From: Novosphingobium kunmingense
GTDB lineage: Bacteria; Pseudomonadota; Alphaproteobacteria; Sphingomonadales; Sphingomonadaceae
Direction of reading: 5' to 3'
NCBI RefSeq assembly: GCF_002813245.1
Contig: NZ_PHUF01000002.1
Coordinates: forward strand, 620,001 to 684,000
DNA: 64,000 nucleotides
Shown: positions 2,221 to 11,603 of the stretch, in pieces
Layout of the letters: each line of letters starts with the position of its first letter
Numbering within the stretch: the first letter of the stretch is position 1
The notes under the pieces: model-generated
The model's input: only the letters and a program-made list of their open reading frames with translations
Databases searched by the model: none
Told to the model about the DNA's origin: nothing
Translations under genes and position numbers: made by a program

Positions 2221-3738
2221 ATGAAGAAGCTGATCCTCCTTGCCGCACTGCTTGCTCTGGCATCCTGCGCCGACAGCCCGGAGGACCGGCTGACCAAGGC
2301 GCAGGAGGCATTCGCCGCCAACGACTATCCGGCCGCGCGGATCCATCTTGCTGCAGCTCTGGCCAAGAAGCCGGGCGACCAGGCCATGCTCGCGCTTCAG
2401 GCGCGAACCTTGCTTGCGCTTGGCGACGGCGAAGGGGCACGAGTTGCGATAGAGCAGCTCGCCGGGAGCAAGGCGCCCACAGGCGAGCTTGCGGAAATGG
2501 CGGGGGAGGCCGCCTTGCTGCGCGCCAAGCCCGACCTCGCCGTTGCCGCGCTGGCCGGACTGGACAGCGTCGAGGCCGAACGCATCCGCGCGCTCGCTGC
2601 GATCCAGCAGGAAGACAACCGCACCGCTATCATTCATTTCGAGCGCGGTCTGGCAGAGGGTGGGAACGCACGGCTGCTGGCGGACTATGCCCGCTTCAAA
2701 CTTATCGCAGGCGACGTGGCCGGCGCGACCGAGCTTGCCGCCAAGGCGGCCAGTATCGCGCCCCACAGCATCGATACGCTGCTGATCGCGGGTCAGCTGG
2801 CGGTTCGCCGCGGCGACCTCAAGTCCGCGCTCGATCTCTACGAAGACGCCGCCAGGCGTTATCCCTCGAGCCTCGCGGCCTTGATCGGCAAGGCCGCCGT
2901 GCTGGGCGACCTGGGGCGACGGGACGAAATGAAAGCGGTGCTCGATCGCGCTGCCGCTTTCGCCCCGCGCGCCGGCGGCATCCTGTTCCTGCGCGCCAAG
3001 GCCGCGGCGCAGGGCAAGGACTGGGCCGGGGTCAGGGCCATCGTGCAGCCGGTCGAAACCGGCCTCGATCAGATCGACCCGGTCCGCCTGATCTATGGCG
3101 AGGCGCTGCTGCGTCTCGGGCAGGTGGAGCTGGCGACCGCGCAGTTCGAACCGATCGTACGATCCGTTCCGGGCAACCGCGACGCGCGGCGACTATTGGG
3201 CGAGGCCCGCCTCGCCAGCGGCGACGCCAAGGGGGCAATGGAAGTGCTGAGGCCGGTGGCCGACCTGCCCTTTGCCGTGAAGGACGAGCTGGCGCTAATG
3301 GCCAAGGCGGCCAGGGCCGCCGGAGATCCCGCCGCAGCACGGTACGAGGCTCGATCGCGGCAACCCGAGCCCCAAGCACTGGGCCGTGACCTGGCAACCG
3401 GCGACGCGGCCATGAAGGCCGGGAACTGGGCCGGCGCCAGCGCGGCCTACCAGCGCCTGCTCGACAATACCGATGGCACCAGCGTGGTCGTGCTCAACAA
3501 CATGGCCTATGCCCAGGCCATGCTTGGCAACTTCAATCGTGCGCGCACTCTCGCCGACCGGGCTTTAAAGCTCGCGCCGGACAATGCGTCGGTGCTCGAC
3601 ACGGCGGGTTGGGTGCGGATCAAGTCGGGCCAGGACGTCGAAAACGGAAAGCGCCTGCTGCGCAAGGGAGCACAGCAGGCGCCGGGGAACATGACGATCC
3701 GCGCGCACCTGGCCGAGGCCGAGCGCGCGAAGCCCTGA
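2221..3738 (+). CDS. TPR-repeat lipoprotein
   Basis: Protein of 505 residues with a lipoprotein signal (LALASC, Cys16 as lipidated residue), followed almost entirely by tetratricopeptide-like helical pairs rich in alternating Ala, Leu and Gly. It is probably an envelope scaffold facing the periplasm. AGGA lies 7 bases before the ATG. It converges on the PEP-CTERM gene with only two bases between the stops. Large TPR lipoproteins (PrsT) belong to exosortase loci, but this one is much shorter, and no exosortase or Prs kinase is in the window, so assigning it to that system is inference from proximity. The exact number of repeats was not counted. Confidence 0.8.
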   Translation: MKKLILLAALLALASCADSPEDRLTKAQEAFAANDYPAARIHLAAALAKKPGDQAMLALQARTLLALGDGEGARVAIEQLAGSKAPTGELAEMAGEAALLRAKPDLAVAALAGLDSVEAERIRALAAIQQEDNRTAIIHFERGLAEGGNARLLADYARFKLIAGDVAGATELAAKAASIAPHSIDTLLIAGQLAVRRGDLKSALDLYEDAARRYPSSLAALIGKAAVLGDLGRRDEMKAVLDRAAAFAPRAGGILFLRAKAAAQGKDWAGVRAIVQPVETGLDQIDPVRLIYGEALLRLGQVELATAQFEPIVRSVPGNRDARRLLGEARLASGDAKGAMEVLRPVADLPFAVKDELALMAKAARAAGDPAAARYEARSRQPEPQALGRDLATGDAAMKAGNWAGASAAYQRLLDNTDGTSVVVLNNMAYAQAMLGNFNRARTLADRALKLAPDNASVLDTAGWVRIKSGQDVENGKRLLRKGAQQAPGNMTIRAHLAEAERAKP

Positions 3739-3740
3739 AG

Positions 3741-4457
3741 TCAGGCGAAGGCCGCGTCCGCAGCGACCTTGCGGCGGCGGCGAAGGAACGCGGTTGCCAA
3801 AAGCGCACCGCCGATCAGTCCGACCATGCCGGGTTCGGGGACCTGGTTGCCCGACGACCCGCCCGACGTGTTGGTGAGCGAGCCGGCACCGCTGGCCGAG
3901 GTCACTCCGCGCACGCCTTCGACCGACTGGTAGCGGACGTAGAAATCGCTGAGAGTCAGCGCCGTTATCGGCTGCAAGAAGCTGAGCGTGAAAGTGCCCG
4001 TTCCGGTTTGGCCGTTGTCGATGCCACCCCCGCCGCCGCCGGCGCAGGATCCGGTGTCGTAACCCTTGAAGCACACATCGATATCGCCAATCCCGTTGGG
4101 GTAGGACGAGTCGAGGGTTGCGAAGTTGAACGTCCCGGTCGACGAAGCGCCGTCGGCGTCAGGATTGGTGTTGAATCCGAAAGACGATACGCGCGACGAA
4201 ACAGGCGCGGTCGATGTGTTGGTGATCGAGTAGTTGAACACGTAGGCGTTGGTGCTGATGCTGGCGAGCGTGAAGGTGGTCGAGGCGGTCAGGCCAGCGA
4301 TGGTCGCGCCGCCATTTCCCGAGAAGCCGTTGTAGTTCAGCGTATAGCTGTTGCCGACATTGGCAGGGGTCAGCGGGATGGTGTCTGCGTGGGCAGCGCT
4401 GGCGAACGCCAGGCTGGCGATGGCGGCAAGAGGTGCAATGGCTTTGAACACGGTCAT
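3741..4457 (-). CDS. PEP-CTERM sorting-domain secreted protein
   Basis: Secreted protein of 238 residues. A Sec signal peptide ends near SAAHA (about residue 23). The body is rich in Ser, Thr, Asn and Gly, with two cysteines (in DVCFKG and GSCAGG) that could form a disulfide. The C-terminus carries the tripartite sorting signal: VPEPG at 206-210, a hydrophobic helix, then RRRR at 226-229. In known systems an exosortase cleaves at this tail and delivers the protein to the surface or extracellular matrix. The first ATG giving a clean signal peptide is at 4457, with a GGGGG ribosome site. The open frame extends far upstream but that part overlaps pth and is not coding. A sigma-54 promoter lies just upstream. 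Confidence 0.93.
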   Translation of the reverse strand: MTVFKAIAPLAAIASLAFASAAHADTIPLTPANVGNSYTLNYNGFSGNGGATIAGLTASTTFTLASISTNAYVFNYSITNTSTAPVSSRVSSFGFNTNPDADGASSTGTFNFATLDSSYPNGIGDIDVCFKGYDTGSCAGGGGGGIDNGQTGTGTFTLSFLQPITALTLSDFYVRYQSVEGVRGVTSASGAGSLTNTSGGSSGNQVPEPGMVGLIGGALLATAFLRRRRKVAADAAFA

Positions 4458-4491
4458 GGGAGCCCCCAGGTAATTGGTTAACTCCAAACTA

Positions 4492-4507
4492 AGCAATGCC
4501 CGTGCCA
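4492..4507 (-). promoter_or_regulatory. Sigma-54 (RpoN) promoter of the PEP-CTERM gene
   Basis: Read on the minus strand the element is TGGCACG-N4-TTGCT, a near-perfect -24/-12 sequence with GG and GC in the right phase (10 bases between them). The predicted start site is about 4481, giving a 24-base leader before the ATG at 4457. A direct repeat GACAG-TCT-GACAG at 4575-4587 and a palindrome GGTTAACC at 4595-4602 lie about 95-120 bases upstream, where an enhancer-binding protein would sit. RpoN and the PrsK/PrsR pair control PEP-CTERM genes in some bacteria (family knowledge, from memory). Confidence 0.8.
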
Positions 4508-4609
4508 AGCGCGGACTTGTGCGGGAAACGTTGATTAACGCGCTATTGGCGCAAGCGCTGATGTAAGGAATTTCGACAGTCTGACAGCTAATCCGGTTAA
4601 CCAGGCCGA

Positions 4610-5179
4610 TCAGTCGTGCAGACGCAGGGCGACCTCGTTCATGAAGCGCGTGTCGTCGCCGTCGGCAAGCCAGCCGGCTTCGGCGCTGATCGCCCCGAGC
4701 ATGTCGGCGAGGGCATCCATCTCGCTTTTGGCATAGTTGCCCAGAACGTGGCCCGTCACGCGGTCCTTGTGGCCGGGATGGCCGATGCCGATCCGCACCC
4801 GGCGAAATTCCGGACCAAGATGCCTGTCGATCGAGCGCAGCCCGTTGTGTCCGGCAAGTCCGCCGCCGGTGCGCACCTTGATCTTGAAGGGCGCAAGGTC
4901 GAGCTCGTCGTGGAAGACGGTCAGCGCCTCTACGGCCAGCTTGTAGAAGCGCAGCGCCTCGCCGACCGAACGGCCGCTTTCGTTCATGTAGGTCGCGGGC
5001 TTGAGCAGCAGGATCCGGTGCCGTCCGATACGTCCTTCCTGGACCCAACCCTGGAACTTCTTCTGGACCGGGCCGAAGCCGTGCACCTCGGCCAGGGCGT
5101 CTATCGCCATGAAGCCGACATTATGCCGGTGCAGCGCATATTGCTGGCCCGGATTGCCGAGACCGACCCAGACCTGCAT
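4610..5179 (-). CDS. pth: Peptidyl-tRNA hydrolase
   Basis: Cytosolic enzyme of 189 residues that releases tRNA from peptidyl-tRNAs dropped by the ribosome. It has the N-terminal GLGNPG motif, the catalytic His in RHNVGF (His19), the MNESG and FHDELDL segments, and GGGLAGHNGL with the substrate-binding Asn. Length is normal for the family. It is preceded by a small secreted-protein gene with a 6-base gap and is probably co-transcribed with it. The pairing of rplY with pth is widely conserved in bacteria. Confidence 0.98.
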   Translation of the reverse strand: MQVWVGLGNPGQQYALHRHNVGFMAIDALAEVHGFGPVQKKFQGWVQEGRIGRHRILLLKPATYMNESGRSVGEALRFYKLAVEALTVFHDELDLAPFKIKVRTGGGLAGHNGLRSIDRHLGPEFRRVRIGIGHPGHKDRVTGHVLGNYAKSEMDALADMLGAISAEAGWLADGDDTRFMNEVALRLHD

Positions 5180-7397: not shown

Positions 7398-8301
7398 GGG
7401 TGGTGGCGGTGCCAGCCTTGGTCAGTGCGTCCTGGACCGACGCCTTGCCGCCGAGGTGACCCGCGCCGACCGCGACGAAGACCGTGCCCGGACGGTCGAG
7501 CCGCGCCCTGATCCAGCGCGCCCAAGCCGCATTCCGATCGTACAGCAGCGCCTTCATCATCGCCGGATCGTTCTGGTCGTCGTTCAGCAGTTCGGCAAGG
7601 ACCAGCGCATCGCCCTTGGCCCAGCTATCGACCATCTTCCCGATCTCGCTTTCGATCGTCGGCATCGACTTGATCGTGTCGAACAGATAGCGCTTCTGCA
7701 CCTTGGCGCTGAACGCGCCGAACAGTCCAAGCTGCATGTCGAGCGTTTCGAGGCCGGAGCGCGGCTTGCCCGCCTCCTTGGCCAGTGCGGACAGGTGCGT
7801 CTCGACGCCATGATCCATGGCATAACCCTTGCGCTGGAGGGGCAGGGTGGCGAGCATGACCGCCGCATACCACGGACGGAAGCGGTCGAAGGCCTCCACC
7901 GGAACACCAAGGCCCTTCAGCGCCGCTTCGTAGCGGATCTTTTCCTTCTTCGACATGCCGGCGCGCAGCGACTGGCCCGGCGGCATCATGCCGTACTTCA
8001 TGACCGCGGCGGCGGTTTCGGTATCGCCGTATTCCGGGATTTCCGTCACCAGTTCGCTGCTATCGCTGAAGGCCTGGGCAACCGGGCCGGTGTACCATTC
8101 GATCCCTTGGGGCAGCAGATGGATGGTGCCGAACAGGTAGATCGTCGTGTCGGCATCGGCGACCTTCCACAGCGCTGGCCGCGCGGTCTGCGCTGCAGGT
8201 GCGGCGGGAGCGGGTGCGGCGGTCTGGGCAGCGAGCTGCGCCGGAGCCAGGAAGGCAAGCATCAGGGCAAGCAGGCGGGACAGCGTCTTGATCGGGTTCA
8301 T
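7387..8301 (-). CDS. TraB/GumN (Tiki-like) family secreted protein
   Basis: Protein of 304 residues with a Sec signal peptide (about residues 1-26, ending in LAAQT) followed by a Pro/Ala-rich linker. The family motifs are FGTIHLLP and VGAGHLGG. Unlike the downstream copy it lacks a lipobox, so the tandem pair probably occupies different places in the envelope: one soluble in the periplasm, one anchored. The ATG at 8301 was chosen because it gives the signal peptide; the frame is open much further upstream across glyQ antisense, which is not coding. Confidence 0.85.
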   Translation of the reverse strand: MNPIKTLSRLLALMLAFLAPAQLAAQTAAPAPAAPAAQTARPALWKVADADTTIYLFGTIHLLPQGIEWYTGPVAQAFSDSSELVTEIPEYGDTETAAAVMKYGMMPPGQSLRAGMSKKEKIRYEAALKGLGVPVEAFDRFRPWYAAVMLATLPLQRKGYAMDHGVETHLSALAKEAGKPRSGLETLDMQLGLFGAFSAKVQKRYLFDTIKSMPTIESEIGKMVDSWAKGDALVLAELLNDDQNDPAMMKALLYDRNAAWARWIRARLDRPGTVFVAVGAGHLGGKASVQDALTKAGTATTRVQ

Positions 8302-8406
8302 GGCGCCCGCTTCTAGCCGCGCACACCCCGCCCGTCGATGAACGAATGGGCCGCTTTCCCCTGCAAACCTTGACCGCCCGCAGCGGCCAAGGCAAAGGCG
8401 CGGGCC

Positions 8407-9309
8407 ATGAGCGAAGCCAAGCAGCCCCTCAGTTTCCAGGACATGATCCTGCGTCTCCACAGCTTCTGGAGCGCGCAGGGCTGCCTGATCCTGCAGCCCT
8501 ATGACATGCGCGTGGGTGCGGGCACGTTCCACCCGGCAACCACCCTGCGCAGCCTTGGCCCGACGCCGTGGAACGCCGCCTATGTCCAGCCGAGCCGCCG
8601 CCCGACCGACGGCCGTTATGGCGAGAACCCGAACCGGCTGCAGCACTATTACCAGTACCAGGTGATCATGAAGCCCAGCCCGGAAAACCTGCAGGAGCTC
8701 TACCTGCAGTCGCTGGGCGAAATCGGGGTCGATCCGCTCGCCCACGACATCCGCTTCGTCGAAGATGACTGGGAAAGCCCGACGCTGGGCGCCTGGGGGC
8801 TGGGCTGGGAGGTCTGGTGCGACGGAATGGAGGTCACCCAGTTCACCTATTTCCAGCAGATGGGCGGGTTCGATTGCAAGCCGGTGGCGGGCGAGCTGAC
8901 CTACGGTCTCGAACGCCTCGCGATGTACATCCAGGGCGTCGACAACGTCTATGACCTTGCTTTCAACAGCGCCGGCGTCACTTATGGCGAGGTGTTCCTG
9001 AAAAACGAGCAGGAGTTCTCGAAATACAACTTCGAGGTCGCCAACACCGAGCAGCTGTTCGAAGGCTTCAGGAACGCCGAGCGCGAATGCCAGGCCTGCA
9101 TCGAAGCCGACGTGCCGCTGGCCGCCTATGACCAGGCGATCGAGGCCAGCCACCTGTTCAACCTGCTTCAGGCGCGCGGCGTCATCTCGGTCCAGGAACG
9201 CGCCAGTTACATGGGCCGCGTGCGCGATCTCGCCAAGGGCAGCTGCCAGGCGTGGATCGAGAAGAACAAGGACCAGTGGGCCAAGGACTATCCGGAGTGG
9301 AGCCTGTGA
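8407..9309 (+). CDS. glyQ: Glycine--tRNA ligase alpha subunit
   Basis: Class II aminoacyl-tRNA synthetase catalytic subunit of 300 residues, acting in the cytosol as an alpha2beta2 tetramer with GlyS. It shows the conserved start [17 protein letters not shown] and the family blocks GAGTFHPAT and [18 protein letters not shown]-like residues. Length is normal. Its stop overlaps the glyS start in a GTGA quartet, so the two subunits are translationally coupled. Confidence 0.98.
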
Positions 9310-11603
9310 GCGATTTCCTGCTTGAGCTTCGTTCCGAGGAAATCCCCGCGCGTATGCAGGCCGGCGCGCGCGCCGATCTGGAAAAGCTGTTTCGCAAGGA
9401 AATGGACGCCGCCGGCATCGCGTTGGGCGAGCTTAAGGTCTGGTCGACCCCGCGCCGCCTGGCGCTGATCGCGCGCGACCTGCCGCAGGCGACCGCCGCC
9501 GTCAGCGAAGAGATCAAGGGCCCGCGCGTTGGCGCACCGCCGCAAGCGCTCGAAGGGTTTCTGCGCAAGACCGGCCTTACCGAAGACCAGCTGATCGAAC
9601 GCGATGGCGTATTGTTCGCGATCAGCGAGAAGCCGGGCCGCGCCACGAACGAGGTCCTGGCCGAGGCGATCCCCGCCATCGTCCGCGCCTTTCCCTGGCC
9701 CAAGAGCCAGCGCTGGGGCGCCGCCTCCATCGCCAGCGAGAGCCTGCGCTGGGTGCGCCCGCTGTCGGGGATCGTCGCGATCCTCGGTGAAGACCTGGTC
9801 GAATGCGAAGTCGGCACGATCCGCTCGGGCTACGTCACCCGCGGCCACCGCTTCCACTGCCCGGGTGAAATCACGATCGGCGGAGCAGGCGACTACGCGG
9901 AGAAGCTTCGCGCCTGCCATGTCATCGTCGATCACGCCGAGCGCCAGAACCTGATCCGCGCCGGTGCCGCCAGGGTCGCGGCCGAGGCCGGCCTGACCCT
10001 GGTCGAGGACGAGGGCCTCGTCATCGAAAACGCCGGGCTTACCGAATGGCCGGTGCCGCTGCTCGGCCGCTTCGATGAAGCGTTCCTCGACGTGCCGCCC
10101 GAAGTGATCCAGCTTACCGCGCGGACCAACCAGAAGTATTTCGTGTGCAACGATGCGGCAGGCAGGCTCGCCAACGCCTTCGTCTGCACTGCCAACATCG
10201 TCGCCACCGATGGCGGCGCTGAAATCGTCGCCGGCAACCGCAAGGTCCTCGCCGCGCGGCTTTCCGACGCGCGCTTCTTCTGGGAACAGGACCGCAAGGT
10301 TGCTCTGGCCGAGCAGGCCAAAAAGCTTGAGCGGATCACCTTCCACGAAAAGCTCGGCACCGTGGCCGACAAGGTCGAGCGCGTGGCGAAGCTCGCCCGC
10401 TGGCTGGTCGAAGAAGGCGTGGTCAGGGGCGCCGACGCCGATCAGGCCGAACAGGCCGCGCGCCTGTGCAAGGCCGATCTCGTCACCGAAATGGTCGGCG
10501 AGTTTCCTGAGCTGCAAGGCCTGATGGGCGGCTACTACGCCCGCGCAGAAGGCCTGCCCGATGCTGTGGCCGACGCAATCCGCGATCACTACAAGCCGGT
10601 CGGGCAGGGCGATGACGTGCCGACCGCGCCGGTGACGGTGGCTGTGGCATTGGCCGACAAGCTTGACACTCTGGCTGGTTTCTATTTTGAACAAATGCCC
10701 CCTACTGGTTCCAAGGATCCGTTTGCACTGCGGCGCGCTGCATTAAGCGTCATTTCCTTGGTCCAAGAAAACAAACTTCGTTTGCCGCTGGCCGATGTCC
10801 TCACGGTATCTCTTTGGATATTGGCGTTTGAGGATCAGATTGATGTGACCTCAATCAACTCTCGCATTGGTAAGATTAATGCGTCTGATCTCGAGCAAGA
10901 AACACCGTGGGGTATCAAGGGATTGCGAGCTGAAGTGGCTGATCTGCAAACCGTAACTCAAATCAATGCAGATAAAGCCCAGCGTTTTGTACCGACGCGC
11001 GAAGAATTGCTGAGCTTTTTCGCCGACCGCCTCAAAGTCCAGCAGCGCGAAGCCGGTGTCCGTCACGACCTGATCGACGCGGTGTTCGCGCTCGGCGGGG
11101 AGGACGATCTCGTCCGCCTGCTCGCCCGCGTCCACGCGCTCCAGGCCTTCGTCGGCACCGCGGACGGAACCAATCTCCTCGCCGGATACAAGCGCGCCGC
11201 CAACATCCTCAAAAAGGAAGGCGTCGATACCGCGGAGGGCACGATCCCGCGCGACGGGGAGGAAGATCCCTTCGCGCTCGTCGACGATCCCGACGTCGCC
11301 TTTGCCGCGCGCGAACGCGCCAAGCTTGGCCCGGCGCTTTCTTACACGCCCGAAAAGGCGGAGAAGGCGCTGATCGATGCGCTCGATGCGGCGGGACCGA
11401 AGGCGTCGGCGGCAGTGACTGCGGAGGACTTTACCGGGGCCATGGCCGCTCTTGCCATGCTGCGCTCGGCCGTGGATGCCTTTTTCGACGAGGTGACGGT
11501 GAACGATGCCGATCCGGTCAAGCGGCAGTACCGCCTGTGGCTTCTGGCGCGGTTCCGCGACGCGGTGCACCAGGTCGCGGATTTCTCGCGCATCGAGGGG
11601 TGA
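9306..11603 (+). CDS. glyS: Glycine--tRNA ligase beta subunit
   Basis: Beta subunit of 765 residues that contributes tRNA binding (B3/B4-like, HD and anticodon-binding parts). The GTG at 9306 overlaps the glyQ stop by four bases and gives the expected [15 protein letters not shown] start. The frame is intact. Bases about 10681-11010 (residues about 459-568) are strikingly AT-richer (hand count 46% GC over 10741-10980) and use codons rare in the neighbours. The protein is roughly 75 residues longer than the 689-residue E. coli GlyS, which fits an extra segment here. The flanking sequences, including the [14 protein letters not shown] block just after the patch, look like ordinary alphaproteobacterial GlyS. 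Confidence 0.96.

Follow-up and report, generated by a model that had tools for sequence, protein, structure and literature searches.

Read on its minus strand, the stretch between positions 4457 and 4578 of the window (i.e., the whole 64,000 nt of DNA analysed here) is very probably an enhancer-dependent sigma-54 promoter of the PrsR class, serving the gene of a cistern-family PEP-CTERM protein (Table 1). The conserved sequences, their spacing pattern and the presence in the genome of every protein concerned are consistent with the following course of events. The histidine kinase PrsK would phosphorylate PrsR, which would bind a 17-bp box at 4578-4562 and from there contact RNA polymerase-sigma54 at 4508-4492, opening the promoter with the use of ATP. 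The 53-bp gap would set box and promoter on the same face of the helix, like in homologous promoters, and RpoN-dependent transcription would start near 4481. The cistern protein would then be exported and its PEP-CTERM tail processed by exosortase A (XrtA) at the inner membrane, en route to the envelope or matrix.

Table 1. Features of the promoter region, its neighbours and two related sites elsewhere in the same genome.
Feature	Position	Strand	Basis or remark
PrsT-like TPR lipoprotein gene, 505 aa	2221..3738	plus	convergent with the cistern gene; TPR domains
Cistern-family PEP-CTERM gene, 238 aa	3741..4457	minus	NF033947, TIGR02595, PF07589
Likely ribosome-binding site CTGGGGG	4463..4469	minus	precedes ATG 4457-4455; sequence
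GTTAACC across the predicted start	4476..4482	minus	sequence and alignment; similar YNAACCA in several homologues
Predicted transcription start	4481	minus	12 nt past the C of the -12 GC; sigma-54 spacing rule
Sigma-54 (-24/-12) promoter TTGGCACGGGCATTGCT	4492..4508	minus	perfect consensus, homologue conservation
GTTAAYC-type element GTTAATCA	4532..4539	minus	TTAA starts 30 nt ahead of the promoter 17-mer
Probable PrsR activator box (Haft motif 1) TGTCGAAATTCCTTACA	4562..4578	minus	homologue conservation, published motif
pth, peptidyl-tRNA hydrolase gene	4610..5179	minus	upstream neighbour; PF01195, 200.8 bits
Box and promoter, gap 42, before 80-aa membrane-type protein	G000:C1:27080-27154 (L110:7080-7154)		outside the window
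Box and -24/-12 promoter, gap 64, then hairpin RNA	G000:C7:4548-4731 (L296:151-334)		outside the window
Hairpin RNA locus	C7:4654-4731		

An earlier note on this DNA had read a sigma-54 promoter here, with correct GG/GC phase and 24 nt from start to ATG, and its letters hold throughout. The minus strand from 4508 to 4492 reads TTGGCACG-GGCA-TTGCT, a full match to YTGGCACGN4TTGCW with GG and GC in phase; since the C of the -12 GC lies at 4493, the sigma-54 spacing rule gives 4481 as the expected start, and the ATG of the cistern gene begins 24 nt further on, at 4457. This is the sole match with zero or one mismatch in the 64,000-nt window, and one of three perfect matches in the whole 3,495,912-base genome (10 contigs), the other two lying before the P-II gene glnK with amtB, and before pspA (divergent from pspF). 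Both glnK-amtB and pspA are textbook sigma-54 genes, so the pattern seems to select plausible sigma-54 promoters.

The location of the enhancer, on the other hand, had to be revised. The activator site had been placed at a GACAG direct repeat (copies at 4575-4579 and 4583-4587) or at GGTTAACC (4595-4602); these letters are real, yet neither is conserved in homologues, and both candidates were ruled out on that ground. Of the earlier interpretation, the sigma-54 promoter before a PEP-CTERM gene thus stands and the enhancer location does not. The PrsR site is likely the 17-mer TGTCGAAATTCCTTACA, which matches the published motif 1, differs by one mismatch from TGTCGN6TTTACA, lies 53 bp from the promoter 17-mer and shares four bases with one of the GACAG copies. 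Among the 11 same-genus genomes with a cistern protein above cut-off (the present one included), TGTCG-N6-TTTACA occurs upstream with at most one mismatch in all 11, even though the genes beyond the box differ in several of them, and the sigma-54 element keeps the same position before the cistern gene in 10; in the eleventh (L032/L251), the element precedes an operon of two genes, a small PEP-CTERM gene and then the cistern gene. It is hardly credible that the -24/-12 element arose by chance or is a relic, with the cistern gene transcribed from a sigma-70 or ECF promoter that escaped notice: the element holds a fixed position in homologues, the upstream box is conserved independently of it, the two are a whole number of helical turns apart, and a search for a sigma-70-like promoter in 3650-4760 returned none. 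Taken by its sequence and setting, the -24/-12 element is more than chance.

The machinery that a PrsR-class promoter calls for is encoded in the genome. RpoN, exosortase A, PrsK and PrsR are all encoded outside the window and score above cut-off in profile searches; they include rpoN and an exosortase, on whose presence the promoter reading depends. The rpoN gene lies on G000:C2 (TIGR02395, 405 bits, cut-off 277). PrsK (476 bits, cut-off 300) and PrsR (665 bits, cut-off 502.6) form a tandem, their adjacent ORFs at L065:6046-8187 and 8187-9551 both scoring above cut-off, and one cluster groups them with EpsB_2 (494 bits, cut-off 393) and a PrsT-like TPR protein. Exosortase A (315 bits, cut-off 208) carries a fused EpsI domain, and is adjoined by genes for an XrtA-system deacetylase and a chain-length protein, both above cut-off. 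The presumed substrate, the cistern protein, matches NF033947 over its full length with 219.3 bits (cut-off 60) and so belongs to that family; it has a signal-like N-terminal sequence, ends in VPEPGMVGLIGGALLATAFLRRRRK, and its PEP-CTERM domain scores 21.6 bits against TIGR02595 (cut-off 16) and 22.5 bits against PF07589 (cut-off 20.7). The convergent gene at 2221-3738, passed over in the earlier note, is a second PrsT-like TPR gene; with 161.4 bits against TIGR02917 (PrsT), under the 312.2 cut-off, its product is by sequence PrsT-like and is not assigned as PrsT. Only two PEP-CTERM proteins of the genome score above the family cut-off. Before the second of their genes (G000:C3:553787-553858, L102) a PrsR box was looked for and not found, so it was rejected as a PrsR target, and some PEP-CTERM genes here would therefore seem to be outside the regulon.

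The box also follows PrsR from genome to genome. PrsR is present in all 11 cistern-bearing genomes of the sample, and in a wider set of 61 genomes, box and promoter occur in 37 of 44 with PrsR versus 5 of 17 without (Fisher p = 9e-5, a value that is only indicative, as related genomes are not independent); four of those five PrsR-negative genomes are fragmented or incomplete assemblies. The frequency of box with promoter is far above that of the reversed-pattern control. These observations bear on whether a true sigma-54 promoter could be served here by an activator other than PrsR, be it NtrC, NtrX, PspF or an orphan. At least five further proteins of the genome match the PrsR model as sigma-54 activators, and pairing promoters with activators can be hard from sequence alone. 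However, motif 1 is absent upstream of the glnK-amtB and pspA/PspF promoters of the same genome (L002/L003), which share the core consensus and for which other activators are expected, whilst it is present at the three sites in this genome where box and promoter combine; it tracks PrsR across genomes, and published profiling, as far as this work draws on it, ties this very motif to PrsR (PMC1569441). Another activator is therefore very unlikely, and PrsR is retained as the probable activator of the cistern promoter.

The distance between box and promoter seems to obey a rule. Among the at least 79 loci listed from an independent collection scan (one Lactobacillus-type match left out as chance), gaps cluster at 41-43, 50-54 and 59-64 with almost none between, i.e., near 42, 52 and 62 bp across Proteobacteria, which correspond to whole helical turns. 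The few longer gaps found were 65, 67, 72, 73, 75, 82 and 83. When each genus-level label was counted once per spacing class (56 entries, 51 labels), the vector strength at 10.5 bp came to 0.75, and 20,000 draws from a Gaussian with equal mean and SD gave no value as high. Several classes may occur within one label, as in Massilia (51, 62) and Accumulibacter (41, 52, 62), and same-genus sites lie mainly at gaps of 42, 52-53 and 62-64. The gap of 53 in the window fits whole-turn spacing. This distribution suggests that PrsR and the polymerase would have to share one face of a short stretch of DNA.

A second element lies inside the spacer. Where sites are spaced by 42 or 53 bp, 24 of the 29 spacers that contain a TTAA have it starting precisely 30 nt ahead of the promoter 17-mer; it usually reads GTTAACC, and stays at a constant distance from the promoter rather than from the box. 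In the 63-bp spacing class, there was no enrichment of TTAA at 30 nt. We take the GTTAAYC element (4532-4539; cf. 4476-4482) to resemble a CtrA half-site, as a lead only.

In sphingomonads, the PrsK/PrsR-sigma54 regulon probably has targets of three kinds, each with a preferred whole-turn gap of its own: 42 bp for an 80-aa membrane protein, mostly 53 bp for PEP-CTERM genes (the cistern gene among them), and 62-64 bp for a structured small RNA of about 75 nt. The first is exemplified by the site on contig C1, where the membrane-type protein downstream starts with MLKKIGRLFVIKTRFEA and has no Pfam match; its homologues in Novosphingobium and Sphingopyxis have the same promoter, with a gap of mostly 42-43. 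In Thiobacillus (L117, L165, L174), box and promoter stand ahead of a conserved membrane-type protein of about 80 aa (MYLGPAF.FAAFASLF...), which is possibly a further non-PEP-CTERM target in Betaproteobacteria. At two other loci (L186, L193), they are followed by a 364-aa ORF (MTNQSGKQT...) that is near-identical in one Woeseiaceae and one Chromatiales assembly.

The site on contig C7 is directly followed by CGTACCCC and a strong hairpin, with no gene start. A GGDEF-EAL gene lies beside it, and a reading of the class-63 sites as promoters of that gene was rejected, because the gene is missing at the sites of relatives and the hairpin RNA follows directly. In an alignment of 28 same-genus copies of this RNA, about 75 nt long, seven of the 12 hairpin pairs have changed on both sides with pairing kept. 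A covariance model built from the RNA alone, promoter excluded, recovers it from 33 genomes, spread over 21 genera, in a sample of 150 genomes and 96 genera of the family, and box and promoter are found within the match limits at 27 of the 30 RNA loci fetched (L310 included), as opposed to 28 of 4940 control stretches under the same limits; the remaining three loci have a weaker box and promoter by eye. The same-genus copies that trained the model had been selected by their promoter, so the informative copies are those from other genera, which make up the great majority. This pattern suggests that the RNA, presumably transcribed and functional, shares the control of the PEP-CTERM genes. Eight of its loci gave no Rfam family at gathering score, the weak matches (SNORA76, P11 and others) falling below it and being taken as chance, and a literature search of incomplete coverage returned nothing relevant on a PEP-CTERM or sphingomonad small RNA of such kind. 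The cistern mRNA was rejected as its pairing partner, matched pairs (-15.4 kcal/mol) being no better than mismatched ones (-15.6) and shuffled ones giving -15.0.

If such interpretation is correct, the PEP-CTERM switch described in 2006 would also act after transcription, by means of a dedicated sigma-54-dependent small RNA, and the hairpin RNA would tie the sorting of the surface matrix to control at the RNA level. The spacing rule, the 80-aa protein target and the hairpin RNA target appear to be new, the rule and the small RNA being the parts of most specialist value. The genome also narrows the PrsR question to three sites with box and promoter and to single prsR and rpoN genes, alongside two PEP-CTERM genes above cut-off.

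Amongst known systems, the pepA gene of Aquincola tertiaricarbonis offers an experimental parallel, as far as the part of that study used here goes (PMC9850573). It too is a PEP-CTERM gene with a -24/-12 promoter and a predicted enhancer upstream, in a genome with PrsK/PrsR and a PrsT gene; its transcription is RpoN1-dependent and its start maps to the -24/-12 site, so that this promoter was tested experimentally, whereas that of the window is known from its sequence. PepA belongs to another PEP-CTERM family (its model gives the cistern protein 30.8 bits, under a cut-off of 80). Plasmid-borne prsK or prsKR did not restore a floc mutant of that locus, a result that counts against taking PrsR as the formally proven activator (PMC9850573).

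The closest relative is the arrangement described by Haft et al. in 2006 (PMC1569441), who reported a 17-nt motif ending in TTTACA together with a sigma-54 motif before proteobacterial PEP-CTERM genes, at a mean gap of 62.8 nt (32-92), linked both motifs to PrsK, PrsR and PrsT by phylogenetic profiling, and predicted that PrsR switches on exosortase-sorted surface proteins. The window has the same TTTACA-ending 17-nt box and the same -24/-12 motif, with a gap of 53 that is within that range and a PEP-CTERM gene downstream, in a genome that has PrsK, PrsR and XrtA. Given this match in layout, the window is an instance of the published design, which has been known since 2006 and is not new in kind. 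The sections of the 2006 paper on which this comparison draws give the gap as a mean with SD, without phasing, and do not include the GTTAAYC element or the small membrane protein and hairpin RNA targets (PMC1569441), all of which are found here.
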